64,000 nucleotides of DNA from Bacteroidales bacterium (lineage in GTDB: Bacteria > Bacteroidota > Bacteroidia > Bacteroidales > Tenuifilaceae), in the NCBI GenBank assembly GCA_016931855.1, contig JAFGDZ010000068.1, positions 124,001-188,000 of the forward strand. The letters are read 5' to 3'. Under the pieces are notes generated by a model. The model was not told the origin of the DNA and did not search any database. It was given only the letters and a program-made list of their open reading frames with translations. Both the position numbers and the translations under genes were made by a program. The stretch's first letter is position 1. Each line of letters opens with the position of its first letter. This document shows, in pieces, positions 4,844 to 23,053 of this stretch.

Positions 4844-5598
4844 TTTTTTAGCAGCGCACTTCGTTCTGCGCTAACATAAATATCGTCACCATCGGGAGGA
4901 ATAGGCTTAAGCACAACCTTGAGGCGACTCTTTGAAAGGGTAACTACCTCTACAATTGAGTCGATATGCGCTATAAACTTCCTATTGAGCCTAAAAAACT
5001 TTGAGGGGTTAACCGCAGGTTCAATCTCTGCAAGAGTAGAGCTGTAAAAGTAGCGACTACCGTTCCTGTCAAAAACCATAAGCAGCTTATCGTCGGCCAT
5101 AAAGTAGGCAATATCATCGTCGCGTAAGCTCCTTATTTTGGTACCAATAGTTACCATAAAGCGCTCCTTTAAGTTTTTAGGCGATGCGGCAGCAAGCATT
5201 TCTGCTACGCGTTGCACCATGCTACTAATATCGGAGGTATGGCCTTGTATTCGTTTAAACTTTGCTAGCGCACGGGTAACGCCAGCCTCATCAATTGGTT
5301 TCAGCAAATAATCAACGCTAAAGTGCGAAAAGGCTTTAAGCGCATACTCATCGTACGCCGTTGTGAACACAACAGGTGCCGACACATCAACCCTATCGAA
5401 AATGGCAAAGCTATTGCCATCGCCTAAATGTATATCCATAAAAATAAGATCGGGTGCGATATTGCTCCCTAACCAACACACCGAGTCCTCAACGCTCTCA
5501 AGCACAGCAAGTACCTCAATGCTAGCATCAACCCGTTGCAATACCTTTTGCAACTGCTTTGCCTGCAAGGGCTCATCCTCTATTATTACAACTCTCAT
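4828..5598 (-). CDS. LytTR-family response regulator
   Basis: The 256-residue protein has an N-terminal receiver (acidic E7/D8, phospho-acceptor D55 in MDIHLGD, K100 in DYLLKPID) and a C-terminal LytTR DNA-binding domain over about 150-255, with the typical FFRLNRKFIAHIDSI block. It is a transcription regulator of the AgrA/LytR type. It is first in an operon with a Cache histidine kinase (16-bp overlap) and a receiver-LytS fusion. That arrangement gives a self-contained signalling unit with two kinases and two receivers. Genes regulated by it are not evident nearby. Confidence 0.92.
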   Translation of the reverse strand: MRVVIIEDEPLQAKQLQKVLQRVDASIEVLAVLESVEDSVCWLGSNIAPDLIFMDIHLGDGNSFAIFDRVDVSAPVVFTTAYDEYALKAFSHFSVDYLLKPIDEAGVTRALAKFKRIQGHTSDISSMVQRVAEMLAAASPKNLKERFMVTIGTKIRSLRDDDIAYFMADDKLLMVFDRNGSRYFYSSTLAEIEPAVNPSKFFRLNRKFIAHIDSIVEVVTLSKSRLKVVLKPIPPDGDDIYVSAERSALLKKWMES

Positions 5599-5825: not shown

Positions 5826-6929
5826 CTACACGTTAAAACGGAAGTGCATAATATCGCCATCCTGCACAACGTACTCCTTTCCCTCAACGGAGAGTTTGCC
5901 TGCTTCGCGGCAAGCGGAATCGGAGCCGTACTTAACAAAATCTTCGAGTTTAATAACCTCAGCACGAATAAACCCTTTCTCAAAATCGGAGTGTATAACA
6001 CCTGCTGCCTGTGGAGCCTTGGTTCCCTTAAGGTAGGTCCATGCGCGGGTTTCAACCTGCCCAGTAGTAAAGTATGTTTCAAGGTTAAGTAGGCGATAAG
6101 CCGATTGGATTAATCGGGCCACCCCTGATTCCTTAATACCAACCTCTTCAAGGAACATCTGGCGCTCCTCATAGGTTTCCAGCTCAGCAATTTCCGATTC
6201 GGTTTTAGCGGCCACAACAAGTATTTCGGCGTTCTCGTCCTTAACCGCTTCGCGAACAGCATCAACGTACTTATTACCAGCGGCTGCCGATGACTCGTCA
6301 ACATTGCAAACGTACATTATGGGCTTATCGGTTAGTAGGAAAAGCTCCTTGGCCAGCTTCTGATCCTCTTTGTTCTCAAACTCAACAGTACGAGCCGATT
6401 TTCCTGACTCTAGCACCGCTTTGTACTGAACTAGTATCTCGTGAAGCCTTTTAGCCAGCTTATCGCCCCCAGTTTGCGCCTGCTTTTGAACACGGGCAAT
6501 GCGCTGCTCAACGGTCTCAAGATCCTTAAGCTGCAGCTCGGTATCAATAATCTCCTTATCGCGAACAGGATTCACAGAACCATCAACATGGGTTACATTC
6601 TCATCGTCGAAACACCTAAGAACATGGATAATAGCATCGGTCTCCCTAATATTTGCAAGGAATTTATTACCAAGTCCCTCGCCCTTACTGGCACCCTTAA
6701 CCAATCCTGCTATATCAACAATCTCAATAGTTGTAGGAATAATACGCTGAGGTTTAGATATCTCAGCCAGCTTAATTAACCTTTCGTCGGGCACATTAAT
6801 TACACCCACGTTTGGCTCAATTGTGCAAAAAGGGAAGTTAGCCGCCTGAGCCCTTGCATTGCTCAAACAGTTAAAAAGGGTCGATTTCCCAACATTTGGC
6901 AACCCTACAATTCCGCATTGTAAACCCAT
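5826..6929 (-). CDS. ychF: Redox-regulated ATPase/GTPase YchF (Obg family)
   Basis: The 367-residue protein has the family's usual length. The N-terminal P-loop is GLPNVGKS (residues 9-16), followed by the Obg-type switch region and the G3 motif [18 protein letters not shown] helical coiled-coil domain follows, and a C-terminal TGS domain runs from about 283 to the end ([15 protein letters not shown]). YchF is a universally conserved ribosome-associated P-loop NTPase with a preference for ATP, linked to stress and oxidative responses. It is monocistronic: it has its own terminator downstream and a repeat-rich spacer upstream. Confidence 0.97.
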
Positions 6930-9140: not shown

Positions 9141-10799
9141 ATGTTTCAGTCAGCATTTAAACCCTTAGCCCTTGCGCTACTATTACTACTACAAATCAGC
9201 GCTGGCAAAGCGCAGCATAGCCTATCTATCCCACCCGAAAAACCAAAGCTTATAGTGCAAATTGTGGTTTCGCAAATGCGGCTCGACTACCTACAGCGCT
9301 ACGAGAGCAAGTTTACCTACAATGGGTTTAGGATGATTGCCAGCGAGGGTGCCTTTTGCAAGAATGCAAGGTACAACTACCTGCTTACCCAAGCCTACCC
9401 CGGACTAGCAACCATATCAACAGGAGGTAACCCCTCAACGCATGGCATTGTGTCCGACAAGTGGATTTCCAAGCTCACCAACGAGGAGATTAAGGCCGTT
9501 GCCGACGATAAGGCTGAAACCGTAGGCGGCAGCTTCTTCTCTGGGAAGTACTCGCCAAAAAACCTGGTAACCAGCACCCTTGGCGACGAGATACGCATAA
9601 GCAACCCCCGATCAAAAGTTATTGGCATATCAATGGATGCAGGCTCTGCCATCCTCTCAACGGGGCATAACGCCAATGGCGTTTACTGGTTCGACACCGA
9701 ACGCGGCTTCTGGGTAAGCAGCAGCCACTTCCTAAAGGCGGCTCCCGCTTGGGTTGATACGTTTAACACCAAGGGCTTTGCCCAGCTATATACCGAGAGG
9801 GAGTGGAATGCCCTTAACCCCATATCGCAGTACGAGGAGGCCGACACTGCCACCGTTAAAAACGAGGAGAGCAAAAAGCGCATAACGCAAAAGCTGAAGC
9901 TAATGCTTGCAGGCATTATCCAAGGAAAGAAGAGCAAAACCGACTTTGCCTCGCTAAACCAAACCCCCTTTGGAAACCTGCTAACCAAGGATTTTGCCAT
10001 AGCGGCCATTGTAGGCGAAGAGCTGGGAATGGACGACCACACCGACTTGCTTACCGTTACCTTCTCCCCCACCCGCAACATAAGCCAAAAGTACGGCCCG
10101 CACTCCATTGAGATTGAGGACACCTACCTTAAACTCGACAGGGAGATAGCGCACTTCCTACAGTTTATTAACGCCACCGTTGGTAAGGAGAACGTGCTTG
10201 TGGTGCTTACCTCCGACCAGGGAGTAGCCTCAACACCCGACCACATGGAGAAGGCAAAAATACCCGGTGGATACTTCGATCCCAACAAGGCCATGATGCT
10301 ACTTAGCAGCTACCTTAACATAACCTACGGAACAGGGAAATGGGTTGTGGCATTCCACGAAAAGCAGATTTACCTAAACCACAGGCTTATTGAGGACTCC
10401 AACCTGCAGCTAGCCGAGGTGCAACAGCGCATAGCCAACTTCATGATACAGTTTACGGGCGTGGCCAACGTATCAACCGGACAGGTGCTGCAAACCTCCA
10501 ACTTTACCAGCGGAATACTACAGAAGTTCCAGAACAGCTACAACCCCCGCCGATCGGGCGATATTATAATAAACCTTGAGCCCGGCTGGGTTGAAAAAAA
10601 CGGCACGGTAACCTCGGCCAACTCGCCCTACAGCTACGATGCCCACGTACCGCTTATTTGGTACGGCTGGAAAATTAAGCGCAAAGCGATACTAAACCCA
10701 GTATCCATGACCGACATTGCCCCAACCATATCCACACTAATAGGCATAACCTGGCCCAACGGCGCAACGGGAACCCCCATTAGGGAGATTATTGAGTAA
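9141..10799 (+). CDS. Alkaline-phosphatase-superfamily (PafA-like) protein, predicted inactive
   Basis: The 552-residue protein has a signal peptide at about 1-25 (ends AGKAQ). Its overall pattern is that of PafA/type I phosphodiesterase proteins of Bacteroidota: QMRLDYLQRY, PGLATISTG.NPSTHGI, YGPHSIEIEDTYLKLDREI and YDAHVPLIWYG. Family knowledge gives the metal ligands and nucleophile, and almost all are changed here. The Asp of VVDQMR is S44, the Thr nucleophile before PGH is A85, the GH His is L89, and the DxxxH pair is R312/Q316. The DH pair is D359/Q360, and the phosphate-contacting Lys and Arg of the KDR motif are D166/G168. Only D359 and H502 remain. It is probably a periplasmic pseudo-enzyme. 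A small gene follows after 17 bp. Confidence 0.85.
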   Translation: MFQSAFKPLALALLLLLQISAGKAQHSLSIPPEKPKLIVQIVVSQMRLDYLQRYESKFTYNGFRMIASEGAFCKNARYNYLLTQAYPGLATISTGGNPSTHGIVSDKWISKLTNEEIKAVADDKAETVGGSFFSGKYSPKNLVTSTLGDEIRISNPRSKVIGISMDAGSAILSTGHNANGVYWFDTERGFWVSSSHFLKAAPAWVDTFNTKGFAQLYTEREWNALNPISQYEEADTATVKNEESKKRITQKLKLMLAGIIQGKKSKTDFASLNQTPFGNLLTKDFAIAAIVGEELGMDDHTDLLTVTFSPTRNISQKYGPHSIEIEDTYLKLDREIAHFLQFINATVGKENVLVVLTSDQGVASTPDHMEKAKIPGGYFDPNKAMMLLSSYLNITYGTGKWVVAFHEKQIYLNHRLIEDSNLQLAEVQQRIANFMIQFTGVANVSTGQVLQTSNFTSGILQKFQNSYNPRRSGDIIINLEPGWVEKNGTVTSANSPYSYDAHVPLIWYGWKIKRKAILNPVSMTDIAPTISTLIGITWPNGATGTPIREIIE

Positions 10800-10816
10800 C
10801 CCCAAATAAATAAGCC

Positions 10817-11053
10817 ATGCTAATAAGAACACAAGACAAAAAGAGCATAGTAAACGCCATACACATATACGTTAGTCCGCAAATTGGCAGCAAAAAGCGC
10901 TACCTGTTTGGCAGGTACCATGGCGCCTCATTCCTTAACGACAACAGCACAACCCTTGGCGTTTACGAGAGCGACGATGCCGTGCTGCAGGAGCTCGATG
11001 CCATTGCTCTGTTCTTCGCCCAAAACCCCAACGGCATTTACCAAATGCGATAA
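10817..11053 (+). CDS. Small protein of unknown function (78 aa)
   Basis: The protein starts MLIRTQDKKSIVN and has alternating hydrophobic/charged stretches (IHIYVSPQIG, KRYLFGRYHGA), consistent with a small alpha/beta fold. It has no signal peptide and no Cys. The MLIRTQDKKSIVN opening resembles small uncharacterised proteins in many bacteria, but I cannot assign a function. It starts 17 bp after the pseudo-phosphatase gene and ends at a clear terminator just before the CRISPR array, so it is probably the last gene of a two-gene operon. Confidence 0.7.
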   Translation: MLIRTQDKKSIVNAIHIYVSPQIGSKKRYLFGRYHGASFLNDNSTTLGVYESDDAVLQELDAIALFFAQNPNGIYQMR

Positions 11054-11072
11054 TCAATAAGGCATACACATC

Positions 11073-11108
11073 AAAAGCCGCTGGTATATCAATGCTGGCG
11101 GCTTTTTT
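11073..11108 (+). terminator. Terminator between the small gene and the CRISPR array (possibly bidirectional)
   Basis: AAAAGCCGC (11073-11081) pairs with GCGGCTTTT (11098-11106), with T residues continuing. On the minus strand it also ends in four Ts, so it could stop the array transcript 10 bp after its last repeat. Confidence 0.75.
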
Positions 11109-11117
11109 ATTAAGGAA

Positions 11118-11540
11118 AGTCTAATTCCAGTGTGGTGCGATTGGAAGGATCCGCAAAAACAAGCGGCCCTGTTGGTTGCCAGTTTCAATTCCAGTGTGGT
11201 GCGATTGGAAGACTCCCCAATAGCGCCGATAGCAAAGGCGTTAAGGGTTTCAATTCCAGTATGGTGCGATTGGAAGTTCCTTATCGGCTTTTACGATTCG
11301 CAGGATCCAGAGAATTTCAATTCCAGTATGGTGCGATTGGAAGAGGGAAGGTCAACAGGCTATTCACCTCGCTTGTAAAATTTCAATTCCAGTATGGTGC
11401 GATTGGAAGAAGGTTAGCAACAACCTTAGCGATGTGGCAAATGCATTTCAATTCCAGTATGGTGCGATTGGAAGAGGAGCTACTCAATCAACCGTAACGG
11501 ACTTGCGCCGATTTCAATTCCAGTATGGTGCGATTGGAAG
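11118..11540 (-). CRISPR. Type I-B CRISPR array, 7 repeats of 30 bp and 6 spacers
   Basis: Repeats start at 11118, 11182, 11247, 11314, 11380, 11445 and 11511, each 30 bp. The spacers are 34, 35, 37, 36, 35 and 36 bp. On the minus strand the repeat starts CTTCCAATCG and ends GGAATTGAAA plus T or C, the ATTGAAA(N) 3' end typical of type I-B crRNA handles. TTCCA/TGGAA can form the short hairpin that Cas6 cuts. The repeat at 11118 is degenerate in its ATTGAAA end, marking it as the trailer end. The leader is therefore on the right, beside cas2, and the array is read leftwards. The two leftmost repeats carry GTG where the others have ATG. Spacer origins cannot be determined here. Confidence 0.97.
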
Positions 11541-11543
11541 CCG

Positions 11544-11551
11544 CAAAGATA
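11544..11551 (-). promoter_or_regulatory. Putative -7 promoter element at the array boundary
   Basis: The minus-strand sequence TATCTTTG fits the Bacteroidota TAnnTTTG consensus. Transcription would start in the first bases of the leader-proximal repeat. No TTTG is found at the expected -33 position. Confidence 0.4.
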
Positions 11552-11591
11552 GTTAAAAAAATATCCCGTTTTACGGGGGTTATATGATGAT

Positions 11592-11673
11592 TGGAATCGC
11601 AATTTTGGACGGCTGATGTTGTCGATCGCCAATAACGCATTTTTCCCTGCGGTTCGACAACATCAGCATTCCA
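11592..11673. repeat. Long inverted repeat in the CRISPR leader
   Basis: GCTGATGTTGTCGA (11612-11625) and TCGACAACATCAGC (11654-11667) are perfect 14-bp inverted repeats with a 28-nt centre. An outer TGGAAT (11592-11597)/ATTCCA (11668-11673) pairing adds six more pairs. There is no T run on either side. Confidence 0.7.
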
Positions 11674-11770
11674 TTCATTTTCAGTATGTCAAAGAACCTT
11701 TTACCTTTATACAACAAAAAATCCAGTGAAACGCTCTAGATGGGCGCCAACATCGACAACCCAAATGCAT

Positions 11771-12037
11771 CTACAGCATTGTATCTATGGAGCTGCGCTC
11801 CTTGCCTACAATCTCCTTTTCGAGCCACTTGCTGTCGCGACTTTTAAACACAATAAGGCTATCCTCCTCTTCGTCCATAATCTCCGATGCCCTATGATAA
11901 AGTTCCTTTAGCTTTACCTCAGTTATCTCGCCCTCAAAAACGGAGTTCTGTATCCAGTTTAGGTATTTCCGGCAAAGCTTTAGCATTTTGCCTGTGCGTT
12001 TCTGCCCAACATCGTAAACTAGTATTATGTACATCAA
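11771..12037 (-). CDS. cas2: CRISPR-associated endoribonuclease/adaptation protein Cas2
   Basis: The 88-residue protein has the usual Cas2 ferredoxin-like pattern. It starts MMYIILVYDV with the conserved Asp after beta-1, followed by GKMLKLCRKYLNWIQNSVFEG (a typical RRY..W.Q.SVFEG-like block) and a C-terminal VFKSRDSKWLEKEIVG strand region. Either of the first two Met codons could be the start; the second (12034) matches the family better. Cas2 dimers bridge two Cas1 dimers in the spacer-integration complex. It is the last cas gene before the leader, 70 bp downstream of cas1. Confidence 0.96.
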   Translation of the reverse strand: MMYIILVYDVGQKRTGKMLKLCRKYLNWIQNSVFEGEITEVKLKELYHRASEIMDEEEDSLIVFKSRDSKWLEKEIVGKERSSIDTML

Positions 12038-12107
12038 GCAATAGTTTTAGTAGTTCGCAATACACCAATTACTTGCCTATGGCAATGTGCAATTGGCAAT
12101 ATATTAG

Positions 12108-13112
12108 CTACCACCACATTTTAAATGGGCGGTACTCCTCTATCCCCAAAAGATGCTTGCTTAGCTTATAGCACTCCAGCTTCACTAGGTGCTTGTAGCT
12201 AACGCTGCGCTTGAGGGTTCGGTGCTGAATGGTTTCGCCAAGCCGCTCCTCAAAGGCCTTTACAAATATCTTTTTCCCCGATTCGTTTAATAGGCATCGG
12301 TTCAACGATTCGGCAAAATGCTTATCCTGAAGCTCTCGCTTATTAAGCACCTTGAAAATAACTCTATCAACAAGCAGGGGCTTAAATATTTCGGCAACAT
12401 CTAGCGCCAAGGAGTAGCGCCGCTCCCCAGGGGTATGCAAATACGATATGGTAGGATTTAGCTGCGTTTGATGTATTGCTCTTAGGCATTGGCTGTAGCA
12501 CATCATGTTACCAAATGATATTAGGGCATTAACGGGGTTCTGTGGAGGTTGCTTGGTTCTACCGCCCATTTCAAAATCGTTTATTATAAGATTAAACGCA
12601 TCGTAGTACGCCTGCCTTATATTCCCCTCAACTCCCATAAGCTCATCTATCTGCGTGGTTTGCGGCACCGATTGCTGAAGCTGCTCAATCCTTTCTATTG
12701 GGGCAGACAGGTCTTTTCCACGGCTATCGTAGTACCTCAAATTTTTAAGCATGTTGTGCGATGCCCCCTCTATAAACCGCTGCGCAATTACCATGCGCCG
12801 CTGCTTATTGGAGTAAAAGTTGGCCTGAGCCATAAGCATACGACCCGATAGCAGGCCATCCCTAGCCATAAACGAGCCTGTATAGTTCTCGTAGTAATCG
12901 AAAAAATGAACGCATATACCATTCTGCCCTAAGAAACTGTAAAGAGCGCTATTGGCATCAAGTGAACCAAAAACGTACATATCGTCAACGCTCTCCACGG
13001 GGATGTATCGTGGCTGTCCCTCTGTGCCGTTCTCATCAACAGGAACAAATTTCAGGGTATTGTCCTTTCGGCTCAACCGGCCGGGATTAAACAGATAGTA
13101 GGATTTTTTCAT
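12108..13112 (-). CDS. cas1: CRISPR integrase Cas1 (type I-B)
   Basis: The 334-residue protein has an N-terminal beta domain (MKKSYYLFNPGRLSRKDNTL) and a C-terminal helical catalytic domain. The metal-binding triad is visible: E162 in GVEGNIRQAYYD, H226 in YLHTPGERRYSLALDVAE, and D238. It integrates new spacers together with Cas2 and probably Cas4. Normally cas4 is immediately upstream in I-B loci. Here a RAYT transposase gene and two palindromes are wedged between them, so cas1 begins 12 bp from a strong 15-bp hairpin. Expression of cas1-cas2 may therefore depend on read-through. Confidence 0.97.
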   Translation of the reverse strand: MKKSYYLFNPGRLSRKDNTLKFVPVDENGTEGQPRYIPVESVDDMYVFGSLDANSALYSFLGQNGICVHFFDYYENYTGSFMARDGLLSGRMLMAQANFYSNKQRRMVIAQRFIEGASHNMLKNLRYYDSRGKDLSAPIERIEQLQQSVPQTTQIDELMGVEGNIRQAYYDAFNLIINDFEMGGRTKQPPQNPVNALISFGNMMCYSQCLRAIHQTQLNPTISYLHTPGERRYSLALDVAEIFKPLLVDRVIFKVLNKRELQDKHFAESLNRCLLNESGKKIFVKAFEERLGETIQHRTLKRSVSYKHLVKLECYKLSKHLLGIEEYRPFKMWW

Positions 13113-13124
13113 GTTTACTTATAT

Positions 13125-13157
13125 AAACCAGTCAGGTTTTTGAAACCTGACTGGTTT
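13125..13157. repeat. REP-like palindrome between RAYT and cas1
   Basis: AAACCAGTCAGGTTT (13125-13139) and AAACCTGACTGGTTT (13143-13157) form a 15-bp perfect stem with a 3-nt loop. It lies just past the RAYT stop and just before the cas1 start. The core CCTGAC/GTCAGG is shared with the palindromes at 13544 and 13837. Confidence 0.85.
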
Positions 13158-13165
13158 TATGACTA

Positions 13166-13819
13166 TTACTCTATTACCAAATGATCAATAAAATCAAAAT
13201 CAATTATTTGCCTATGCGTATCCACAAAATTGCCCTTTCCATCGAACCAGTCTAACACCTGATTGCGGTTAAGTTTTGTTGACTTAGCCGATACAATTGA
13301 ACCGTACGACGACCAAGGGTAGTCCTTGTAATTATCGGTAAATCCATGGTGCACAGGGTTTGAGTGGATATAAACAACCAGTTGGCGAAAGTACCGCTCA
13401 CTATCGACCAGCTTACGGCGGAATGGGCGTTCGAAAAGCGTTCCTTGGCGACCTCGCTGTTTGTTAAGGGCCTGAGCATATGCGTTGAATAAATTAGAAA
13501 AACTTTTCGATGCGAATTGGGAAAGTTTTTCGTCCTTCTCCACCCCTGACAGGGTTTGAAACCCTGTCAGGGCTTTTCTTCCTCGATTCGAAATTTCTTC
13601 AATTACTACCTCCTCCACCTCCTTAATGCGTACCAACAAATGAAAATGGTTGCCCAGCAAGCACCAAGCAAAGGTATCGGCAATGGGGTCGATATGCTCA
13701 TCGTACTTCCGCAAGAAATACTGGTAATTATCGGGACTATAAAACAAGTTTACCCCATTCACACCCTTGTTGTAAATGTGGTAGTAGTTGCCAGCAATTA
13801 GGGGTTGGATTGTGAACAT
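13166..13819 (-). CDS. REP-associated tyrosine transposase (IS200/Y1-like, RAYT)
   Basis: The protein is 217 residues from the ATG at 13819. A GTG codon at 13840 would add seven residues but lies inside a palindrome. The HUH motif is NHFHLLVRI (H58, H60), and the catalytic Tyr is probably Y113 in NAYAQALNKQ. The GTLFERPFRRKLV, YIHSNPVHHGF and YPWSSYG blocks are classic for the RAYT branch of Y1 transposases. RAYTs are single-copy, non-IS relatives that process REP palindromes. Three such palindromes are here: at each end of the gene and inside it. Residues 83-92 (ALTGFQTLSG) are encoded by the internal one. The gene splits cas4 from cas1 in the same transcription direction. Confidence 0.92.
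   Translation of the reverse strand: MFTIQPLIAGNYYHIYNKGVNGVNLFYSPDNYQYFLRKYDEHIDPIADTFAWCLLGNHFHLLVRIKEVEEVVIEEISNRGRKALTGFQTLSGVEKDEKLSQFASKSFSNLFNAYAQALNKQRGRQGTLFERPFRRKLVDSERYFRQLVVYIHSNPVHHGFTDNYKDYPWSSYGSIVSAKSTKLNRNQVLDWFDGKGNFVDTHRQIIDFDFIDHLVIE
13544..13572. repeat. REP-like palindrome inside the RAYT coding sequence
   Basis: CCCTGACAGGGTTT (13544-13557) and AAACCCTGTCAGGG (13559-13572) make a 14-bp perfect palindrome with a single central base. It is read through in frame by the transposase gene. Confidence 0.85.
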
Positions 13820-13836
13820 CTTCTTATTCTTTTTAA

Positions 13837-13873
13837 ACACACCTGACAGGTTTTAGAAACCTGTCAGGTGTGT
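13837..13873. repeat. REP-like palindrome between cas4 and RAYT
   Basis: ACACACCTGACAGGTTT (13837-13853) and AAACCTGTCAGGTGTGT (13857-13873) form a 17-bp perfect stem with a 3-nt loop, 7 bp past the cas4 stop. Its core is the same as in the other two palindromes. Confidence 0.85.
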
Positions 13874-13880
13874 ATTACTA

Positions 13881-14387
13881 TTACTCCTCCCCGCTCCAGC
13901 AGAAGTCGTTGTAGGAGCAGTTTCTGCATTTCGGGCTTTTTATTCTTGGAGGACAAGTATCTAATGATAATAGTTTGTTTACAGAATCAATAATTTCTCT
14001 TAATCGCTCTCTATCATCCTCGTTAAGTTCAACTTCTTCTGTTTTTCTTTCCTGCGGATACTCAAGAATACCGCTAACATTTTCCACTCCATTTCTTTCA
14101 AGTATTAATATGTAATACTTTAGTTGCCAAACATGTGTTTCATGGAACTTACTCGATTTTTTAATTTCATGAATTACTCTATTTTTAGCATCATAGAAAT
14201 CGATCTTTATGGGACCAAATGAAATCTGCTCATATTTACTTGAACGATGATTATAACTTGTTTCTTCAACAAATACACCCATTTCAACATCCTCGGATGT
14301 GTCCTCAAATCGAATACAGTTAGCATGCAGCCACATTCTTCTATGACAGTAAAGATAATAGGCTATTAATGTACCTGTAACATCCAT
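13881..14387 (-). CDS. cas4: CRISPR-associated exonuclease Cas4
   Basis: The 168-residue protein is a compact Cas4 of the RecB/PD-(D/E)XK type. It has an N-terminal Cys C14 (YYLYCHRRMWLH), a nuclease core with D63, E74-x-K76 (HEIKKS) and Q88..Y91 (QLKYY), and a C-terminal cluster C154/C157/C163, with C145 nearby. One N-terminal plus three C-terminal Cys is the arrangement for a 4Fe-4S cluster. Cas4 trims prespacers and selects PAM-proximal ends for Cas1-Cas2. Its start codon overlaps the cas3 stop by one base (both at 14387). The next gene downstream is the RAYT insertion rather than cas1. Confidence 0.95.
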   Translation of the reverse strand: MDVTGTLIAYYLYCHRRMWLHANCIRFEDTSEDVEMGVFVEETSYNHRSSKYEQISFGPIKIDFYDAKNRVIHEIKKSSKFHETHVWQLKYYILILERNGVENVSGILEYPQERKTEEVELNEDDRERLREIIDSVNKLLSLDTCPPRIKSPKCRNCSYNDFCWSGEE

Positions 14388-16813
14388 TATAGAAAGCAGT
14401 TTTCAACATTATTAACTATAAGGCCAGTTTTGGAAGAATAATTAGTATGGCTAATAAACTTAATTCCCATGATTTCGTAAACGAAGTTATCTATAGGATA
14501 CTGCGATTTATTGTATTTATTCAGCCTTACATTAAGAATCCTGCCATTAAGTTTTTTTTGAAAAGAACTTAACTTAATTCTAAGTTCTTGCCTTTCAGTA
14601 AACGTCTTCGATGCAGAAAGTTTTGCTAAAAGCAATTCTAAATCTTCGTAAACAAAGTCGTTTTCATCCTTTAAAATGTAAAATTGTATTTGCTCACCAA
14701 CATTCTGGTTAATAAGTTTAAAACGCCCCAATGTTTCAAACCTTGCCCTTTTTACACATTCAACCATATTAACTCGGCTTTCATGACCCGAAATAAAGTC
14801 GCCAATACTAAGATTGTCTTTTATATACTCAAAGAATTTCGATTGCACGCCGAACAGTTCCTTCTCATGTATTCCGCTCTTTAGTTCTTTAATACAAAAA
14901 TCGAGAAAAACTTTTGCTTCATCACGATAAATAAGTGATGCCCTAGACCTTCCTTTATCATTTATAAGTTGAAGAAAGAATACTTGACCAAGTTCTATTT
15001 TTTTATTACGGTTGCACCTACCTGCACTCTGGATTAAACTTGGCAAAGGACATAAGTCTCTGTAAACAATGGGAAAATCAATATCAACACCCGCCTCAAT
15101 AAGTTGAGTAGATATTAATACAACCCTAATGTTGGCCGCCAATTTTGCTTTAATCTCATCAATTATCCTACTCCTGTCATCGGGTATGAAATGTGTATTT
15201 AGAAGGAACAAATTCTCACACCGATATTCGAGTTTATCATATAGCGCCTTAGTGTCTGCGATTGTATTCAGAATTACTAGGCTGGAATTTTCTTGTTTAA
15301 GGATATGCTCCGCCAATTCATCAACATTACACTTATCAGTCAGTATATCTATTCTATATCTATTAAAAGTATCCTCACTGAAATATTTTGCTGCATCAAT
15401 CAACTCCTTAGGCGGAGAGTAATCTACAAAAAGTAAATCAGCTCGCAATTCCTCATTAGCGCTAGTCTTTATAGGAATTTCCATTTTGGGCATAGTTGCA
15501 GTGGAAAGAACTGCGAAAGAATTATTCCTTCTACAAAACTCTTGGAGCCAAGCTGTAAAGAATATGTATAAACGAGGGGGCAACGCTTGCACTTCGTCGA
15601 TAAGAATAATACGATTAGCAAAATTTGGCAGTTTTAGAAGAGTAGAGTTTCTGTTGCTAACAAGAGTTTCAAATAGTTGAACAAACGTTGTGATTATAAA
15701 GGGATGATCAAAAGTGTTCTGAACAAAATCCTCTTTTAAAATCTTATTCAAATTCTCAGGAGTTTGCTCATTTTCGTATAGTTGTTGAGCTCTTTCTATC
15801 CTATCATTTTCTGCCTTTGAGTTAATTGCAAGCACATCTTCAAGTAAAGTTTTTGCAATATCTTCAACCTGCTCTGTAATTGAAAGAAAAGGCAAGGCGT
15901 AAATAATACCTAATTCCCCCTTTACCCTCCTAATCTCATTGGCTATAGCTAGTAATGAGAATGTTTTCCCCGCTCCAGTAGGCGCTGTAAGCGTAAAAAT
16001 GCGCTCCTCCCTTTGCATAGCTTTTCTTACACCCTGTACAGCTTCGACTCTAATAGCTGTTCTCAGTCTGTTTAGGCTAGAAATACTTGAGGAATCATCG
16101 AATAATTCAAATTTTGAAGTCAACGAACTACGTAAACTATCAACGTTTTGGGTTACTGATGTTTTAAAGTAAAAGTCAACATTACTGCCTGCATCCCTTT
16201 TATCTGCTTCTATTAAAGCAGAAAATGCAGACTGAGTATCCATAAAATATCTAAGTGGATTTTTCTTCCAAGCACTCTTGTGAATTCTATCCGTGAATGT
16301 TAGGATTATGTCAGTTTTTTTGTTTAGCGCAAGAGAGAAATCTTCAGATGGTAGATTAAGCCTTTTCTCAATGAATTCTTGAATAGGTAAAACATCCGCA
16401 TTTTCTTGAAAAAACGCATAGGCTGTTATGAGTTCTTCTGAACTTGGGGAGAAATTCTCAAGATCAGGAAGGTTTCCGTGGTGTTTGCCAATTATAACAG
16501 ATACCAACAAGACAAATAAAGCAAACTCCTCATTGCTTTCAACATTGCACTTTTCTTTTAGCAAATCAATATTTGCTAATGCAAAATTCGTAAAGGCAAG
16601 CAATGATAGGTAAGAGTGATTACTATATCCTCCAGTGGCTTCCCCCTTCAACTTTGCTTGGAAATTAGGGTTCATCTTCCCAATATCGTGAAAAAGTGCA
16701 GCCCAATACACAAATGGGCTAGAGGAGCGGTGTAGGGTTAACTCCACCACTCCTTTAATATGCTCCTCCAACTTTTTATTTGGATGAGATTCAAACTCTA
16801 AATCAAGCACCAT
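14387..16813 (-). CDS. cas3: CRISPR-associated helicase-nuclease Cas3 (HD-fused)
   Basis: The 808-residue protein has an N-terminal HD nuclease domain (H42-D43 in ALFHDIGKM; H111/H112 in IGKHHGN). An SF2 helicase follows, with Walker A TAPTGAGKT (276-284), Walker B DEVQ (406-409), motif III STATMP and motif VI QSAGRCNRN (about 595-603). It unwinds and degrades the DNA strand displaced by Cascade. The start overlaps the end of cas5 by 16 bp and the stop overlaps the cas4 start, so translational coupling is likely. The catalytic residues look intact. Confidence 0.97.
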   Translation of the reverse strand: MVLDLEFESHPNKKLEEHIKGVVELTLHRSSSPFVYWAALFHDIGKMNPNFQAKLKGEATGGYSNHSYLSLLAFTNFALANIDLLKEKCNVESNEEFALFVLLVSVIIGKHHGNLPDLENFSPSSEELITAYAFFQENADVLPIQEFIEKRLNLPSEDFSLALNKKTDIILTFTDRIHKSAWKKNPLRYFMDTQSAFSALIEADKRDAGSNVDFYFKTSVTQNVDSLRSSLTSKFELFDDSSSISSLNRLRTAIRVEAVQGVRKAMQREERIFTLTAPTGAGKTFSLLAIANEIRRVKGELGIIYALPFLSITEQVEDIAKTLLEDVLAINSKAENDRIERAQQLYENEQTPENLNKILKEDFVQNTFDHPFIITTFVQLFETLVSNRNSTLLKLPNFANRIILIDEVQALPPRLYIFFTAWLQEFCRRNNSFAVLSTATMPKMEIPIKTSANEELRADLLFVDYSPPKELIDAAKYFSEDTFNRYRIDILTDKCNVDELAEHILKQENSSLVILNTIADTKALYDKLEYRCENLFLLNTHFIPDDRSRIIDEIKAKLAANIRVVLISTQLIEAGVDIDFPIVYRDLCPLPSLIQSAGRCNRNKKIELGQVFFLQLINDKGRSRASLIYRDEAKVFLDFCIKELKSGIHEKELFGVQSKFFEYIKDNLSIGDFISGHESRVNMVECVKRARFETLGRFKLINQNVGEQIQFYILKDENDFVYEDLELLLAKLSASKTFTERQELRIKLSSFQKKLNGRILNVRLNKYNKSQYPIDNFVYEIMGIKFISHTNYSSKTGLIVNNVENCFL

Positions 16814-17493
16814 CTTGTTTGGTCGTTAAACTCATAGTATGCCCCTTGCACTTTAATCCTAGACTGATTAGACGGATAAACAACAGATACGTATCGCTCA
16901 GGAATATTCCAAAAGTCGTTATTTTGATACGTTGGAATCTTATCAAATCCTATTCTAAAAGTTGTGAGTTCATCCATCATCGGCTTATAATTATCAGTAA
17001 CAAAACCAAGTGTTTCAAAAACACCCTCCTTTTCAGCTAGGCTTCCTGTTTCTATAAAAGAAATATCCGCAGGACAATTATGCAAACCAAGTACTGGAGA
17101 ATAGCAGGCTTTACCTTGCTGACAATGCGATTTGAATTTTTCAAAGAGTTCAGCACAGGCGTTGTCTTTCAAACCACAAATAATTGTGTAGTCTGGATTT
17201 TTAATAAACTCCATCTGTTTAGGCGACTTATCCCAACTGTTTGAAACGCTCCGTAAAGTGAAACCCCAAGATTGTTTTACTACTGCGTTATTAACCTGTA
17301 GCCCAAAAAGCAAACCATCGCAAAGCAAGGGGAATTGGTCTCTCATATCTTCACGATTAATTCCTATAACTGCACCTATTAGTCCTACAAATGCCGTTTT
17401 GGTCATAAAGTCGTGCGACAAGGGGTTATTATTGGTTTCAGCCTTTCGGAACTGCGCCCAATTGCCATTTACCCTAATTTTTACTGCATCCAT
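16798..17493 (-). CDS. cas5: Cascade subunit Cas5 (type I-B)
   Basis: The 231-residue RAMP protein starts MDAVKIRVNGNWAQFRKAETN, the usual N-terminal beta strand plus W.(H/Q)FR pattern of Cas5. KTAFVGLIGAVIGI, the glycine-containing helix typical of the family, follows. Cas5 caps the 5' handle of the crRNA in Cascade and contacts Cas8. It sits between cas7 (1 bp gap) and cas3 (16 bp overlap). Identification rests on motif pattern plus position; the I-B subtype follows from the neighbours. Confidence 0.92.
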   Translation of the reverse strand: MDAVKIRVNGNWAQFRKAETNNNPLSHDFMTKTAFVGLIGAVIGINREDMRDQFPLLCDGLLFGLQVNNAVVKQSWGFTLRSVSNSWDKSPKQMEFIKNPDYTIICGLKDNACAELFEKFKSHCQQGKACYSPVLGLHNCPADISFIETGSLAEKEGVFETLGFVTDNYKPMMDELTTFRIGFDKIPTYQNNDFWNIPERYVSVVYPSNQSRIKVQGAYYEFNDQTRWCLI

Positions 17494-17494
17494 A

Positions 17495-18505
17495 TTAAAA
17501 GCTCATTTCTGTGAACTTTGAACCAAGTTTTGAAATAGTTTCTTTTACCTCAGGAATTTCAGTGTAATATCTAATTGCCTTTATTTTAGTTGACTCCGCA
17601 ATTTCTTTTAACCTCGAAAAGTTGAACGTGTAGTCGTCCATCGAACGAATTTGCTCGTCTTCTTTGCTCGATTCAATCGTTATTAACTTATCTGTTCCGT
17701 AAAGTTTATCGTTTGGCTCATTGTAAACTATTTGGATTAGCAATACAGAACTTTGGTTTGACTTGCTTCTAGTATTAATATTATTAATGCTTTTCCACAT
17801 AGCACTAAAAAGTTCCTTTATATCATCATTGCTAAGGTCTGTTTGAATTGCCGAGTAGGGATTAATCCAACCGTGTATTTGGTTTATTGCGTATGGCACC
17901 ACTGTGGTTGTTCCAATTGCTCCTCTGGATTTCTCTGCACTAGATGAGAAAACCGAAGTGTTCTGATGTATTCTAAGGTCGCTTTTATTAAGGGAAGGAT
18001 TTAGCAGAGCAAATTGAACAGGACCTGTAAGGTTTACTGCGGCTTCAGCTTCTGTTGAAATACCTCCAAATAATCTAACATCTATACAATTCTTTAAAAG
18101 GCTGAGAGCAGTTTCGAAGATTCTCTTTTCCTTTTTGAGTTTATCAAAGAAATCTTTTTTCCCTTTTTTTAAATCAGCCTCACTTAATTGTTTGTCCTTA
18201 AGTTGATCGTTCAGATACTTTTCCCAAAGTGATTTCATCCTTGCAGAAGAGCCAGACTCTGTACTTCCTTCAGCAACCTGCGATTTATCATTAAAAACAT
18301 AAACCTCGTAATTTGTATTACCATTTAAAAGATTCTGTTCAATAAAAAAATCTCTCACGTAGCGTTTTATTCTTACATCAGAAACCAGCACGCGCTTAGT
18401 TTCCTCATCGTATCTTTGCTCACCTGTAAAGGGGTCGCCATTAGGAATAGTGTATTTGCTCTCAAATAGGAACAAAATTTCTGATTTGTCAACAGTATTA
18501 ACCAT
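17495..18505 (-). CDS. cas7: Cascade backbone subunit Cas7 (Csh2 type, I-B)
   Basis: The 336-residue protein shows the Csh2/DevR features. Its N-terminus, SEILFLFESKYTIPNGDPFTGEQRYDEETKRVLVSDVRIKRYVRD split into strands, has the conserved NGDP and SDVRIKRYVRDF blocks. A central RLFGG and TGPVQFALLNPSLNKS segment follows. Six or so Cas7 copies coat the crRNA spacer. The gene lies 19 bp downstream of cas8b and 1 bp upstream of cas5. Confidence 0.94.
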   Translation of the reverse strand: MVNTVDKSEILFLFESKYTIPNGDPFTGEQRYDEETKRVLVSDVRIKRYVRDFFIEQNLLNGNTNYEVYVFNDKSQVAEGSTESGSSARMKSLWEKYLNDQLKDKQLSEADLKKGKKDFFDKLKKEKRIFETALSLLKNCIDVRLFGGISTEAEAAVNLTGPVQFALLNPSLNKSDLRIHQNTSVFSSSAEKSRGAIGTTTVVPYAINQIHGWINPYSAIQTDLSNDDIKELFSAMWKSINNINTRSKSNQSSVLLIQIVYNEPNDKLYGTDKLITIESSKEDEQIRSMDDYTFNFSRLKEIAESTKIKAIRYYTEIPEVKETISKLGSKFTEMSF

Positions 18506-18524
18506 AATAGTATTTTTTAAGGGT

Positions 18525-20288
18525 TTAATTATCTAAACTACTTTCAACTTGATTCTCATTTTTCTTGCCACTGGCATAGTAGGTTTCAAAGAATCCAAGG
18601 GCGCAATTATGCTTGCTGTATTTTTCTCCTTTAAACTCTTTAACTAGTCCCACTAATTCTAGGTAAGCATTTTTCACATCTGGGTATAGCCTCTCGTGAA
18701 TGACTAATTTCTCATTAATAAATCCTGAAAACTTTACCAGTTCATCAATTGAACTTATGCGGCGTGATAGATTTCCTACATAAGATTTTTCGAACGATTT
18801 TATTGGACAATCGTTTCGCCAAGCAGCGAATTGCCTTGCCATTATGCCTAGGTTACGCCCTAGCTCATAACTCTTTGTTTGGGTTATTTCCATAAGATTG
18901 TTTTTTTTCTGAATGCTCATTAAAAAGTAAAAGTCGTATTTAAGGGTTGTAAAAGAAGGATTCCCCTCTCGTATATTATATTCAACCTTATCGATAAAGG
19001 TAGGTAAGAGTAGGGGGTCGTTGTAATAGGTGTCAGTATAAATTTGAGGTATCACTTTAAGTAGATGAAACTGAAACTTCTTTTTATCCTTAGTAACATC
19101 ACCAAGAATATTCAAAAAGCTTTTCCTGATAGAAAAGGTTGGATTATTTAGGGTTGATAATTCCGTTTTTAACTGTGCAATGATTTTTCTTTTCACAGCA
19201 TCAATCTGGTTGTGAATATAAACTAATAGGCTTTTTTCTACGTTTGAAACTTCTATTAAATCGCAATAGACACCCGCAGGCGATTTTGGGATACTTGAGA
19301 AGATAATGTCAAACTTAACCCTTTCGTTAAACGGATTATTAATAGCCTCACCAAAGAGGTCATCTATATTTATTCCAACTTCTGTAACAAGGCTTTCCTC
19401 ACCATGTCTAGCTTCGTCAACTGATACCGTCTTCTTTTCAAAAAAAGTTACAATATCCTGCGAAGTCAACTGGTCAGAATGAGGGAGAAGTATTATACCA
19501 ATATCATTAATTCTTACTTTAGGCTGCTGGTATGCTTCAGTTGCATACATAATACTTATAATATCATCGCTCGTGAAAACCTTATTTTTGTATTTGTATT
19601 TTTCATCAAATCCAGGTGTAATTCCTCCTAGTGTTTTATACAAGTACTTATCTAGAACCAAATGACCTGTTTCGGGATCTTTTACAACAAGGTTTTGAGT
19701 AATAATTTCATCAATAGCAATTAGCAATCCATCAACCTCAAACCAACTGAGACCGATAAAACTAAAATGAAGTACAACAGATAGCTTTGATTTAATAAGT
19801 TCTTCAAGTTCTAACTTCTTCTTTCTGTATTCATCCCTAAACTTATGAATAAACAGATTTTCCATTGTTTTCGCTATCTCTTCGGCTCCGTCAAATGAAG
19901 AACGTTTTTCCCATTTCCCAAACAAGCGGTAGTTTCCAAACTCTTGCAAATCACCTTTCTTATCAAAAAAGTGGCTATAACAAATATCGCCAAGCAGATA
20001 ACGCTTTTCTGCATCCTTTTTAGAGGTTTTAAAATTTAAGTAGTAAAGGCTTTTCTTTTTATCTTCATCCTCAATAGTTCTTAAATTATCAAGGTCAAAC
20101 AAAAAAGAATCACCCTTGTCTATAACAGGAACTTCATAAAATGTAGTTTCTATAGGATTCCCATCTTTATCCTTATTTTTTCTAAGAGCCTCCACATCTT
20201 TTACAACCGAATTAACCTGCTCGTGATATATGTGTGCATTGGGCGCTTGGCGGTATAGTTTACCAATTTTTATTACGGTGTCAAGCAT
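18525..20288 (-). CDS. cas8b: Cascade large subunit Cas8b (Csh1 type)
   Basis: The 587-residue protein is in the position and size class of I-B large subunits. It lacks any enzyme motif and is rich in Lys/Glu and aromatic residues. The C-terminal 130 residues are mostly helical (YELGRNLGIMARQFAAW, then long amphipathic helices), like a small subunit Cas11 fused to the end. An ATG at 18920, which encodes Met457 at the start of MSIQKKNN, could serve as an internal start. Cas8b recognises the PAM. Some Csh1 proteins have Cys-rich zinc motifs; none is obvious here. The assignment depends on both locus position and general pattern. Confidence 0.88.
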   Translation of the reverse strand: MLDTVIKIGKLYRQAPNAHIYHEQVNSVVKDVEALRKNKDKDGNPIETTFYEVPVIDKGDSFLFDLDNLRTIEDEDKKKSLYYLNFKTSKKDAEKRYLLGDICYSHFFDKKGDLQEFGNYRLFGKWEKRSSFDGAEEIAKTMENLFIHKFRDEYRKKKLELEELIKSKLSVVLHFSFIGLSWFEVDGLLIAIDEIITQNLVVKDPETGHLVLDKYLYKTLGGITPGFDEKYKYKNKVFTSDDIISIMYATEAYQQPKVRINDIGIILLPHSDQLTSQDIVTFFEKKTVSVDEARHGEESLVTEVGINIDDLFGEAINNPFNERVKFDIIFSSIPKSPAGVYCDLIEVSNVEKSLLVYIHNQIDAVKRKIIAQLKTELSTLNNPTFSIRKSFLNILGDVTKDKKKFQFHLLKVIPQIYTDTYYNDPLLLPTFIDKVEYNIREGNPSFTTLKYDFYFLMSIQKKNNLMEITQTKSYELGRNLGIMARQFAAWRNDCPIKSFEKSYVGNLSRRISSIDELVKFSGFINEKLVIHERLYPDVKNAYLELVGLVKEFKGEKYSKHNCALGFFETYYASGKKNENQVESSLDN

Positions 20289-20325
20289 AATATTTATTTT
20301 TAGTTTTTATCTTTTACTAAACCTA

Positions 20326-21096
20326 TCAGGTTCTCCCCCCAACACATCCAAACCCCATACTATTCTCCTCGCCAAATCCACCTACGTAGCCTAAGCGCAT
20401 AATCTCGGGCGAAGCCGTAATTCGGAAACGGAAACGATAGCCAATAACCTTAACAGGGCGTACCAAATCCTTTTTCTGCATCAGAACGCCCTTTAGCTTA
20501 GGCTCATCAATTAGCTCAAACTGCTCATTGGGTAATCGGGCGGGATCGTTGCCATAGTAAACTTGGTGCTTCCGCACCAAATTATCTATAATGGCCTTTG
20601 CGTAGCGCGCATCGGTAGGCGAAAGGTACTCCTTGGTACCATCGGGACGCTTAGCCGAAACCACTACGGGCGAAAGGCTTTCAAACTCCATTGTTTCGGG
20701 GTAAGCGGGTTCTGGAACCATCTCAATAGAGGCCACATTAAATGAAGCCCTACTAATGCTATCACCTATTGTTGCACGCTGCTGTGCAAATACACCTTTC
20801 ACAAACTCCTCGGTAGAGCGTTCGGGTAAAAACGACAAAAGAAAAGTAACTGGCTCAGCAGATAGAATAAGCCTGTCGCCATTCACCCTTGCACGGGGAG
20901 TTGTAAGGTTCGAAAAGCAGAAAAACTTAAACCTTTTACTCCCATCGGCAAATCCATTGGCATGTAGCCACTCGGCATAACTCCTATCGCCATTTGCTAT
21001 GGTTTTGTAAACCCACGATGCCAATGGGTACTGATAATTAATGGGTAAAAGGTTCTCTTTTGTACTATCAGGAATAAGGGTAATCTTAAATCTCAT
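20326..21096 (-). CDS. cas6: crRNA-processing endoribonuclease Cas6
   Basis: The protein is 256 residues from the ATG at 21096. An in-frame upstream codon at 21135 would add MRLVPCSTIILLV, which does not fit the family, whereas MRFKITLIPD is a typical Cas6 first strand. The glycine-rich loop close to the C-terminus (GGFGEENSMGFGCVGG) is the Cas6 signature for binding the repeat hairpin. Cas6 cuts the repeat to leave the 8-nt ATTGAAA(N)-type handle. It is the first gene of the cas operon; a candidate promoter lies about 130 bp upstream. Confidence 0.93.
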   Translation of the reverse strand: MRFKITLIPDSTKENLLPINYQYPLASWVYKTIANGDRSYAEWLHANGFADGSKRFKFFCFSNLTTPRARVNGDRLILSAEPVTFLLSFLPERSTEEFVKGVFAQQRATIGDSISRASFNVASIEMVPEPAYPETMEFESLSPVVVSAKRPDGTKEYLSPTDARYAKAIIDNLVRKHQVYYGNDPARLPNEQFELIDEPKLKGVLMQKKDLVRPVKVIGYRFRFRITASPEIMRLGYVGGFGEENSMGFGCVGGRT

Positions 21097-21485
21097 GACC
21101 AATAATATTATAGTAGAGCACGGCACTAACCGCACCAGTTATTTAAAAAGACATTGGAGCTAATAATGAGAAGTAAACCACTAGGAGTAGTAACCATATA
21201 CTGCTCTTTTATATTTTTTTTTGCAAAGTACATTGCCGTTGTGTCAACCTATGACAATGCACTAACTTTTTTTCTTTTTTATCCTATCCTTTTTGCAGCA
21301 GATGCCGAATAATTGCTATTAAATCCTTTTTATCCCTTTCTTCTATCCTTTTCAACCATAAACCATAGCAGTAGCGGCTCTATAAAAGTAGAAACACTTT
21401 TTATAGATTACAAGTAAAGTTCTCCTAAAAAATGAGAAACCCAACAGGCGGCCGAGACCTGTCAGGCGTTTATTGATTTACACCC
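21097..21485. promoter_or_regulatory. Non-coding region upstream of the cas operon
   Basis: No gene is seen in this 389-bp AT-rich stretch. On the minus strand, TTGTC (21253-21257) and TACTTTG (21230-21224) form a weak Bacteroidota-type promoter pair facing cas6. An imperfect REP-like hairpin lies at 21436-21470, and a CTATAAAA/TTTTATAG pairing lies at 21381-21407. Confidence 0.35.
21436..21470. repeat. Imperfect REP-like hairpin remnant
   Basis: ACAGG (21444-21448) and CCTGT (21458-21462) pair, with partly matching AAACCC/GGCGTT arms. It contains CCTGTCAGG, the same core as the palindromes around the RAYT gene about 8 kb away. Confidence 0.5.
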
Positions 21486-22208
21486 CTACCTTGCCCCAAA
21501 CTCCAACAGCAGCTCAGGATTTTGCTCTAGGGCGTTGCCCACAACTACCATGGTGGCACCGGCTTGGTAAGCTGCTTGCAGCTGCTTTGCGGAGCGGATA
21601 CCTCCGCCAACAATTACAGGAATGGTTACGTTACGGCACACTACCGCAATAAGTTCATGCGGAACGGGGTTTGCTGCGCCACTACCCGCCTCAAGGTAAA
21701 TGGCTTTTAGCCCTAGCTGCTCGCCAGCAAGGGCTGTAGCTACGGCAATATCTGTTTTGGCAGAGGGAATGGGCATGGTGTTGCTCATGTACTGCACCGA
21801 TGTTGCTACGCCACCATCAATAAGCATGTAGCCAACGGGTATTACCTCTATACCGCTGCGCTTAAGCGCTCCTGCAACGTGCACATGATTACCTATAAGG
21901 AAGTCGGGATTGCGCCCCGATATAAGCGATAAAAGGAAAATGGCATCGGCACTGGGCGCAAAGTGCATAGCGTTGCCAGGGAATAACACTACAGGAATGT
22001 GGGTTTGCTCCTTTACTAACCTAACAGCAGCATCGGTATCGCCATCAACAAGGCTACCCCCAACCATTACAATGTTTGCCTTTGCCCTAGTGGCATTGGC
22101 AAGCGTAAGGGTTAGCGTTTGCGCATTAATTTTGTCGGGATCAATAAGCACTGCAAGCAGTCGCTCGCCATTGCTATATCCTTCCTGTAGCTGTTGTAAA
22201 AGAGACAT
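21486..22208 (-). CDS. Geranylgeranylglyceryl/heptaprenylglyceryl phosphate synthase family protein
   Basis: The 240-residue TIM-barrel protein of the PcrB/GGGPS family shows LLAVLIDPDK (phosphate-side Asp), IVMVGGSLVDG, PVVLFPGNAMHF, YLEAGSGA and PVIVGGGIRS, with the phosphate-binding glycines at the C-terminal ends of the strands. The family couples a polyprenyl diphosphate to sn-glycerol-1-phosphate, making an ether lipid precursor. Bacteroidota homologues are known biochemically as GGGP synthases, but their physiological role is unclear. It is followed by an acyl-carrier-type phosphopantetheinyl transferase and gldD/gldE on the same strand, separated by a 212-bp repeat-rich spacer. Confidence 0.93.
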   Translation of the reverse strand: MSLLQQLQEGYSNGERLLAVLIDPDKINAQTLTLTLANATRAKANIVMVGGSLVDGDTDAAVRLVKEQTHIPVVLFPGNAMHFAPSADAIFLLSLISGRNPDFLIGNHVHVAGALKRSGIEVIPVGYMLIDGGVATSVQYMSNTMPIPSAKTDIAVATALAGEQLGLKAIYLEAGSGAANPVPHELIAVVCRNVTIPVIVGGGIRSAKQLQAAYQAGATMVVVGNALEQNPELLLEFGAR

Positions 22209-22210
22209 TT

Positions 22211-22428
22211 TTAATAGTTAAAAGATGAAGAAGTTAAAAGTTAAAAGATGAAAAAAATTAGTTAAAAGATGAAGGATAAAAAAAGCTAAAGGATGATCCA
22301 TGTGCACTGCCATCTCTATGTAACCCGTAACTAGTAACCTGTCACCAAACTATCACCAATCAGTCATTAGCCATTAGCCAAAGATATCACCACCAAACAC
22401 TAAACACCAGACACCAAACACTAAACAC
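22211..22428. repeat. Low-complexity intergenic repeats
   Basis: TTAAAAGATGAA-type units occur at 22218-22285, then GTAAC(C/T)-type units, then CACCAAACACTAAACACC units at 22388-22428. The last type also occurs beside ychF. No gene or stable structure is seen. Confidence 0.5.
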
Positions 22429-23053
22429 CCCTATATGCCAGAACAAGGCAATAATCATTAAAAAACTTGTAATAGATGCTCACTGGCATCCACTGCCCGT
22501 TATCCTCTACATGGGCAATGGTTTCACCTTCTTGCATCAATGGGCTAACCTGTTGCAGGTTCATTTGTGTGGCAAAAACCTTCCCCGTGTTGCCCTGCAT
22601 TTTATAAATAGCCTCCTTGGCGCACCACACAAGTGCCATTTGCTGCTGGTTCTGGGGGTTCACCCACTCAAGTTCCTGCTCCGATGCGTACCTCCCAAGT
22701 ACCTTAGCAAAGGTACGCTTTAGCTGCTCAACATCAATACCCAATGTAAGCGTTGCGCTCTTAGCAACAGCCACCGCTCCCGTGGTGTGCGAGAACGAGA
22801 TACGGGTATCGGAGTTTTGCAGCATTGGCTCGCCATGTTGGCTGTAAACAATATCGCCACTAACACCCATTTGTCGGGCAAGGATACGCGTGGCCAACCA
22901 CTCCGATCGCCTAACGGAGTTAGAGTAGCCTTTGCACTCCAGCATCATCCTATCGGGTTCGCTGGCCATTGCCAGCAGCTCCGCCTCCGACTGGGAGTAG
23001 AACCATAGCCCAACATCGCACCCATTAATGGTAAATCGGCAATGAGAGCTCAT
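22421..23053 (-). CDS. 4'-phosphopantetheinyl transferase superfamily protein
   Basis: The 210-residue protein is of the Sfp/Gsp type. SFSHT (86-90), GIDVE (105-109, magnesium-binding) and WCAKEAIYK (143-151) are the three family motifs and are intact. It transfers the phosphopantetheine arm from CoA to a carrier protein Ser. No dedicated polyketide or peptide synthase is nearby, so a general acyl-carrier substrate is likely. It starts 2 bp before the gldD stop region and is probably co-transcribed with gldE-gldD. This pairing is common in Bacteroidota. Confidence 0.93.
   Translation of the reverse strand: MSSHCRFTINGCDVGLWFYSQSEAELLAMASEPDRMMLECKGYSNSVRRSEWLATRILARQMGVSGDIVYSQHGEPMLQNSDTRISFSHTTGAVAVAKSATLTLGIDVEQLKRTFAKVLGRYASEQELEWVNPQNQQQMALVWCAKEAIYKMQGNTGKVFATQMNLQQVSPLMQEGETIAHVEDNGQWMPVSIYYKFFNDYCLVLAYRGV

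Follow-up and report, generated by a model that had tools for sequence, protein, structure and literature searches.

A REP-associated tyrosine transposase (RAYT) gene, encoding an HUH nuclease, occupies the same slot directly ahead of the adaptation genes in many Bacteroidales CRISPR systems, which suggests a link to the recording of infections. The gene was found in a 64,000-nucleotide stretch of the genome of a Bacteroidales bacterium of the family Tenuifilaceae (hereafter, the window). At the level of sequence, the arrangement recurs across the order and is specific as to slot and strand, the active site is intact and under purifying selection, the occupant of the slot is swapped between loci, and the RAYTs have cognate palindromes. 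We are highly confident that the association of RAYT with cas1 in these sequences is non-random. That the RAYT has been co-opted in adaptation, as an adaptation-linked HUH nickase, is our preferred reading, to which we would give not quite an even chance.

The type I-B locus of the window is complete and lies on the minus strand (Pfam, NCBIfam and PADLOC), in the order cas6-cas8b-cas7-cas5-cas3-cas4-RAYT-cas1-cas2-CRISPR array. Its features are as follows:

21439-21467, minus strand: imperfect REP-like hairpin upstream of cas6, with one CCTGACAGG inside
20326-21135, minus strand: cas6 (Pfam, NCBIfam)
18525-20288, minus strand: cas8b (PADLOC, as Cas8b1)
17495-18505, minus strand: cas7 (Pfam, NCBIfam)
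16798-17493, minus strand: cas5 (Pfam, NCBIfam)
14387-16813, minus strand: cas3 (Pfam, NCBIfam)
13881-14387, minus strand: cas4 (Pfam, NCBIfam)
13837-13873: REP-like palindrome in the cas4/RAYT gap, 17-bp perfect arms (13837-13853/13857-13873)
13166-13840, minus strand: RAYT (NCBIfam, alignment, AlphaFold, PDB match)
13544-13572: in-frame palindrome within RAYT, 14-bp perfect arms (13544-13557/13559-13572)
13125-13157: REP-like palindrome in the RAYT/cas1 gap, CCAGTCAGG variant, 15-bp perfect arms (13125-13139/13143-13157)
12108-13112, minus strand: cas1, I-B type (Pfam, NCBIfam, PADLOC)
11771-12037, minus strand: cas2 (Pfam, NCBIfam)
11117-11544, minus strand: CRISPR array of 7 repeats, adjoining cas2

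The initial annotation had described an intact RAYT separating cas4 from cas1-cas2, with palindromes at both ends and inside, and this description held in full, with perfect arms of 15, 14 and 17 bp. No known RNA families were found in positions 10500-22500 of the window. In the second CRISPR locus of the same genome, of type II, cas9 and cas1 overlap and RAYT is absent, which counts against co-option.

The RAYT ORF spans 13166-13840 when read from a GTG and 13166-13819 when read from an ATG. The ATG is likely the true start, since the start of the homologue in Perlabentimonas gracilis, a member of the same family, matches it. The NCBIfam model REP_Tyr_transpos matched the protein at E=2.7e-15 with 56.5 bits, under its curated cut-off of 80; among 14 control genomes, one gave a score above that cut-off. 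A Pfam search returned no match, and a PHROGs search returned weak matches to one unnamed family and nothing else. The AlphaFold model (pLDDT 89) had as its top PDB match 4er8, the complex of a RAYT with a REP hairpin (E=3.6e-8), and residues H65, H67 and Y157 were invariant across 32 aligned relatives. The window gene thus combines an HUH motif with a single catalytic Tyr in a Y1 fold, as is required of a RAYT. Among 46 cas-linked RAYTs, the HUH motif was recognised in 45 and the Tyr motif in 42, with NHFH paired with YIHSNP, YIHQNP or YIHNNP. The residues encoded by the inner palindrome fall where the model is least certain, in a predicted loop from the HUH strand to the next long helix. At E<=0.001 the genome holds one RAYT, the low copy number of a RAYT rather than that of a multicopy IS. 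Two further RAYT-like ORFs, on contigs C1 and C78, are distant in sequence, and local paralogy was ruled out on that ground. Both of these ORFs (L014, 1708-1757; L016, 1724-1750) contain an in-frame inverted repeat shortly past the HUH motif, of a sequence unlike that in the window.

The palindromes are not confined to the RAYT. CCTGACAGG occurs five times in the window, against 0.27 copies expected from shuffles, and the strict palindrome pattern occurs nine times in the 4.08-Mb genome (G000), with two copies at the RAYT and one variant copy beside it. The gene is therefore flanked by REP-type palindromes that also have copies elsewhere in the genome. REPs of the canonical subclasses begin their 5′ foot with GT[AG]G; by eye, the three window copies lack it there. 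Five of the nine strict copies lie on one 41.7-kb contig (C77; L018, L019), one of them at each contig end.

In P. gracilis (G021) the order is cas6-cas5-cas3-cas8-cas7-cas4-RAYT-cas1-cas2, the effector gene names and an I-C-like reading having been assigned by eye. Identity to the window is 87% for RAYT, 84% for cas1 and 89% for cas2, compared with just 48% for cas4, indicating that a RAYT-cas1-cas2 block stands behind a different effector set. In a second member of the family (G018), cas4-RAYT is followed by the contig end. The observation that would have counted against a link, namely close relatives with cas4 and cas1 joined and RAYT elsewhere, was thus not made. Five further genomes of the family (G002, G003, G005, G016 and G017) carry cas9-RAYT-cas1 with window-like RAYTs, G006 and G021 carry cas9-RAYT-cas1-cas2 with a distant RAYT (~29% identical), and G004 has a RAYT of the distant type upstream of cas1. 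The II-C locus of G006 (L063:2922-12744) contains RAYTs of both deep clades, the distant one in the cas9/cas1 gap and, ~1.3 kb upstream of cas9, another that is window-like (79%). The latter, which looks like a remnant of a replaced locus, adjoins a gene that by eye resembles menaquinone-type radical SAM genes, and the same radical SAM-like gene lies upstream of the I-C-like locus of G018.

Across the order, cas1 (PF01867) is present in 204 of 392 genomes. We searched 100 cas1 neighbourhoods with a RAYT profile; these loci were chosen among ~157 matches listed, down to E ~7e-30. The sample excluded most of the matches at E ~1e-68 to 1e-39, which were mostly other type I/III cas1, as well as G268 and the loci examined separately (G000 twice, G042, G031, G049, G051, G056, G005 and G017), G051 being represented by its second cas1 only. 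RAYT was present in 17 of the 100 neighbourhoods, and all 17 copies shared the strand of the cas genes and immediately preceded the adaptation genes; the 1,012,802 bases searched contained none in any other place, be it the cas1/cas2 gap, the far side of cas2 or the antisense strand. By locus type, RAYT was found in 15 of 33 cas9 loci (in the cas9/cas1 gap), 2 of 56 type I-like loci and none of 11 others. Its absence from 18 of the 33 cas9 loci counts against co-option. Assuming independence, 0.04-0.43 RAYTs would be expected by chance in 100 slots at 1-10 RAYTs per genome, although the counts are not independent events, because the loci are related. The initial annotation had proposed a search for cas4-RAYT-cas1 in other lineages; recurrence proved wider than it had guessed, the slot being reused in type I-B and I-C-like loci and most of all in those of type II-C. 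RAYT is thus linked to cas1 repeatedly, across lineages and beyond chance, as expected of an accessory adaptation gene.

A survey centred on RAYT gave a complementary picture. Among the best 80 of 464 named RAYT loci, 12 were cas loci (7 cas9/cas1, 1 cas4/cas1, 2 cas7/cas4 and 2 beside cas6); the other 68 were outside cas loci, which counts against co-option. With the distant RAYT as query, CRISPR loci made up 14 of 30 among the matches listed. The nearest cas genes on both sides of all 46 cas-linked RAYTs are on the same strand as the RAYT, and in 41 of them the first cas gene downstream is cas1 or cas4. The exceptions, also counting against co-option, include two RAYTs beside cas6 and two with cas9 nearest downstream. 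In a set of 141 RAYTs, which is non-random in that 17 were drawn from the cas1 searches, the downstream neighbour was co-directional in 45/45 cas-linked cases vs 48/86 others (p=2.9e-9), and the upstream neighbour in 43/45 vs 68/89. Among the Pfam-scanned neighbours of non-CRISPR RAYTs (48 of the 63 found upstream and 48 of the 62 found downstream), no family exceeded 4/48 on either side. The idea that these RAYTs habitually adjoin other defence genes was rejected for want of a dominant family by Pfam, and by PADLOC on the upstream set. One RT/Cas1_IIIb-like PADLOC match to an upstream neighbour is most likely a YMDD-bearing ORF (L127:1113-2111) in which BLAST found no similarity to Cas1, and we therefore left it out of the CRISPR count.

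Judged from pN/pS, the RAYT is under purifying selection: between the window and P. gracilis the ratio is 0.16, compared with 0.13 for cas1 and 0.11 for cas2. A fixed slot and strand, an intact active site and purifying selection together argue for an enzyme in use rather than a decaying insertion. The suggestion in the initial annotation of a domesticated HUH endonuclease carried in the adaptation operon is partly supported by recurrence, slot and strand; the gene probably serves the host.

In the reading that we prefer, a catalytically intact RAYT-REP element would have been recruited repeatedly, in the same place and direction, ahead of the adaptation genes of Bacteroidales. The RAYT would be co-transcribed with cas1-cas2 and assist adaptation as an HUH nuclease that nicks single-stranded DNA able to form hairpins, at replication forks or in invading DNA, and such nicking may supply ends or fragments to Cas1-Cas2. 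The palindromes in and around the gene would be its recognition sites and may regulate it too. More specifically, and more tentatively, RAYT could be a bona fide accessory adaptation gene, passing to Cas1-Cas2 the single-stranded ends that it derives from hairpins, while its exchangeable centre and cognate palindromes set what is cut; such an HUH nuclease would have been acquired many times at cas9/cas1 and cas4/cas1 borders.

The history of the slot bears on this reading and on its strongest rival. In a tree of 140 RAYTs (one short ORF of the 141 was left out), the CRISPR label changes 21 times, at least 7 of them forced by starred branches, and cas-linked RAYTs are scattered, each of two deep clades holding 23. 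In a tree of 57 type II cas1 genes, the RAYT label changes 9 times, 5 of them forced; L071 was labelled 'none' there yet has a RAYT, as its RAYT duplicates that of L080, and the count is thus 34/57, not 33. Identity between RAYTs correlates weakly with identity between their cas1 genes (Mantel r=0.30, p=0.001), which counts against co-option. Cas1 pairs that are 71-72% identical have RAYTs from the two deep clades that are 28-30% identical, so that the slot persists while its occupant is exchanged. Between G003 and G016, identity is 99% for Cas1 and 74% for RAYT. When the window is compared with P. gracilis, pS is lower for RAYT (0.47) than for cas1 (0.82), which probably reflects a more recent exchange or conversion of the RAYT. 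Evolution is faster in several slot RAYTs than in cas1, with pN/pS reaching 0.49 vs 0.10 in some II-C pairs, a further point against co-option.

Exchange may also act within the gene. In three of four pairs, the end segments of RAYT mostly have 75-96% DNA identity, compared with <65% in the centre, a stretch that starts past the HUH motif and takes in the inner palindrome; the fourth pair, L072/L074, has a conserved centre. We read the centre as an exchangeable segment, although a loop that changes rapidly would give the same picture. The RAYTs of L072/L070 and of L071/L073 have like ends around a centre that looks unrelated, as though a segment for specificity had been swapped.

The patchy presence, fast evolution and swapping of these RAYTs suggest that their role is non-essential or partly selfish. 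It is a real possibility, though one that we hold well below even, that RAYT is a selfish hitchhiker, lodging at the effector/adaptation border of CRISPR loci that are often transferred. RAYTs spread poorly alone, so lineages lodged at this border would survive, and the border would tolerate them because interference is unharmed. The patchy distribution on the cas1 tree, the replaced and mosaic RAYTs and the majority of RAYTs outside CRISPR loci all fit this explanation, as does the RAYT-cas1-cas2 of P. gracilis, joined to its dissimilar cas4 as if moved as a unit. However, tolerance alone leaves the same strand and single slot of 17/17 RAYTs unaccounted for, and likewise the purifying selection.

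The distribution of palindromes bears on another explanation, in which hairpins at gene junctions set mRNA stability or the dose of cas1-cas2 and RAYT is kept as their maintainer. The initial annotation had raised the possibility that the hairpins reduce cas1-cas2 expression. Six of the 11 genomic copies of the cognate palindrome in P. gracilis lie in one cas operon, five intergenic (in the cas6/cas5, cas7/cas4, cas4/RAYT, RAYT/cas1 and cas1/cas2 gaps) and one within RAYT. Both genomic copies in G018 lie in the cas locus, and G031 (1/1 copies) and G051 (4/29) have palindromes between genes of their cas contigs, despite having no RAYT at E<=1e-10. The four in G051 are at L067:678-704, 5515-5541, 6163-6189 and 6353-6379. 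These placements at cas genes favour regulation by REPs. Against it, a search in the sense (minus) direction found nothing terminator-like at the window palindromes, on which ground intrinsic terminators were rejected, and many cas-linked RAYTs lack flanking palindromes, which are scarcer at them than at others (upstream 15/45 vs 36/93; downstream 9/45 vs 40/93; 3 of the 141 RAYTs, lacking a recognisable HUH motif, are outside this count). We consider this explanation unlikely. Perfect stems of at least 9 bp between the HUH motif and ~60 residues on are found in 21/45 cas-linked vs 13/93 other RAYTs. Palindrome sequences vary from RAYT to RAYT and by eye are usually alike within one.

A single chance insertion in this lineage, without wider meaning, which the initial annotation had entertained, would fit the RAYT-free cas4/cas1 gap of five more distant relatives with similar Cas1 (G049, G031, G051, G056 and G042, the gap in G042 being ~200 bp), but it is contradicted by the recurrence in every survey, and we reject it as highly improbable.

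The RAYT resembles E. coli TnpAREP (PDB 4er8) in its fold, HUH motif with single Tyr, flanking palindromes and small number per genome, and differs in being an operon partner of cas genes, in its longer protein and in palindromes whose 5′ foot lacks GT[AG]G. In the classification of Quentin et al. 2018 (PMC6006769), subclass 2.4 has in-frame REPs inserted between HUH and Tyr and subclass 2.6, from Bacteroidetes, has palindromes of an atypical kind; the motifs here match neither of these rows exactly, and the main text of that paper contains no mention of CRISPR. The 2023 FLSHclust survey lists 'Y1 Tpase' under 'Putative CRISPR auxiliary genes' in the legend of its Fig. 6D (PMC10910872), likewise a Y1 transposase flagged by CRISPR linkage. 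Other transposases beside CRISPR loci of Bacteroides fragilis have been called unexplained (PMC5704556). In the literature on RAYT, Y1 or HUH enzymes with CRISPR adaptation, mostly outside subscription journals, we found no description of the present arrangement. RAYT classes and in-gene REPs were already known.

Cas4, Csn2 and RT-Cas1 are accessory adaptation genes that adjoin cas1-cas2 and encode nucleic-acid enzymes or binders. Compared with these, the RAYT is of a different fold, is not obligatory in these loci and in type I occurs alongside Cas4. Domesticated transposases of the RAYT kind are widespread, and we know of no benefit that they bring to the host; to our knowledge, II-C systems have neither Cas4 nor Csn2. 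The presence of RAYT ahead of cas1 in many II-C loci of Bacteroidales joins these two questions, that of the benefit of RAYTs and that of the accessory genes of II-C adaptation, and the cultured carriers Gaoshiqia sediminis and P. gracilis allow a direct test. If the RAYT is instead selfish, these loci would illustrate how a transposase that is not autonomous can endure, namely by settling in operons of immunity.
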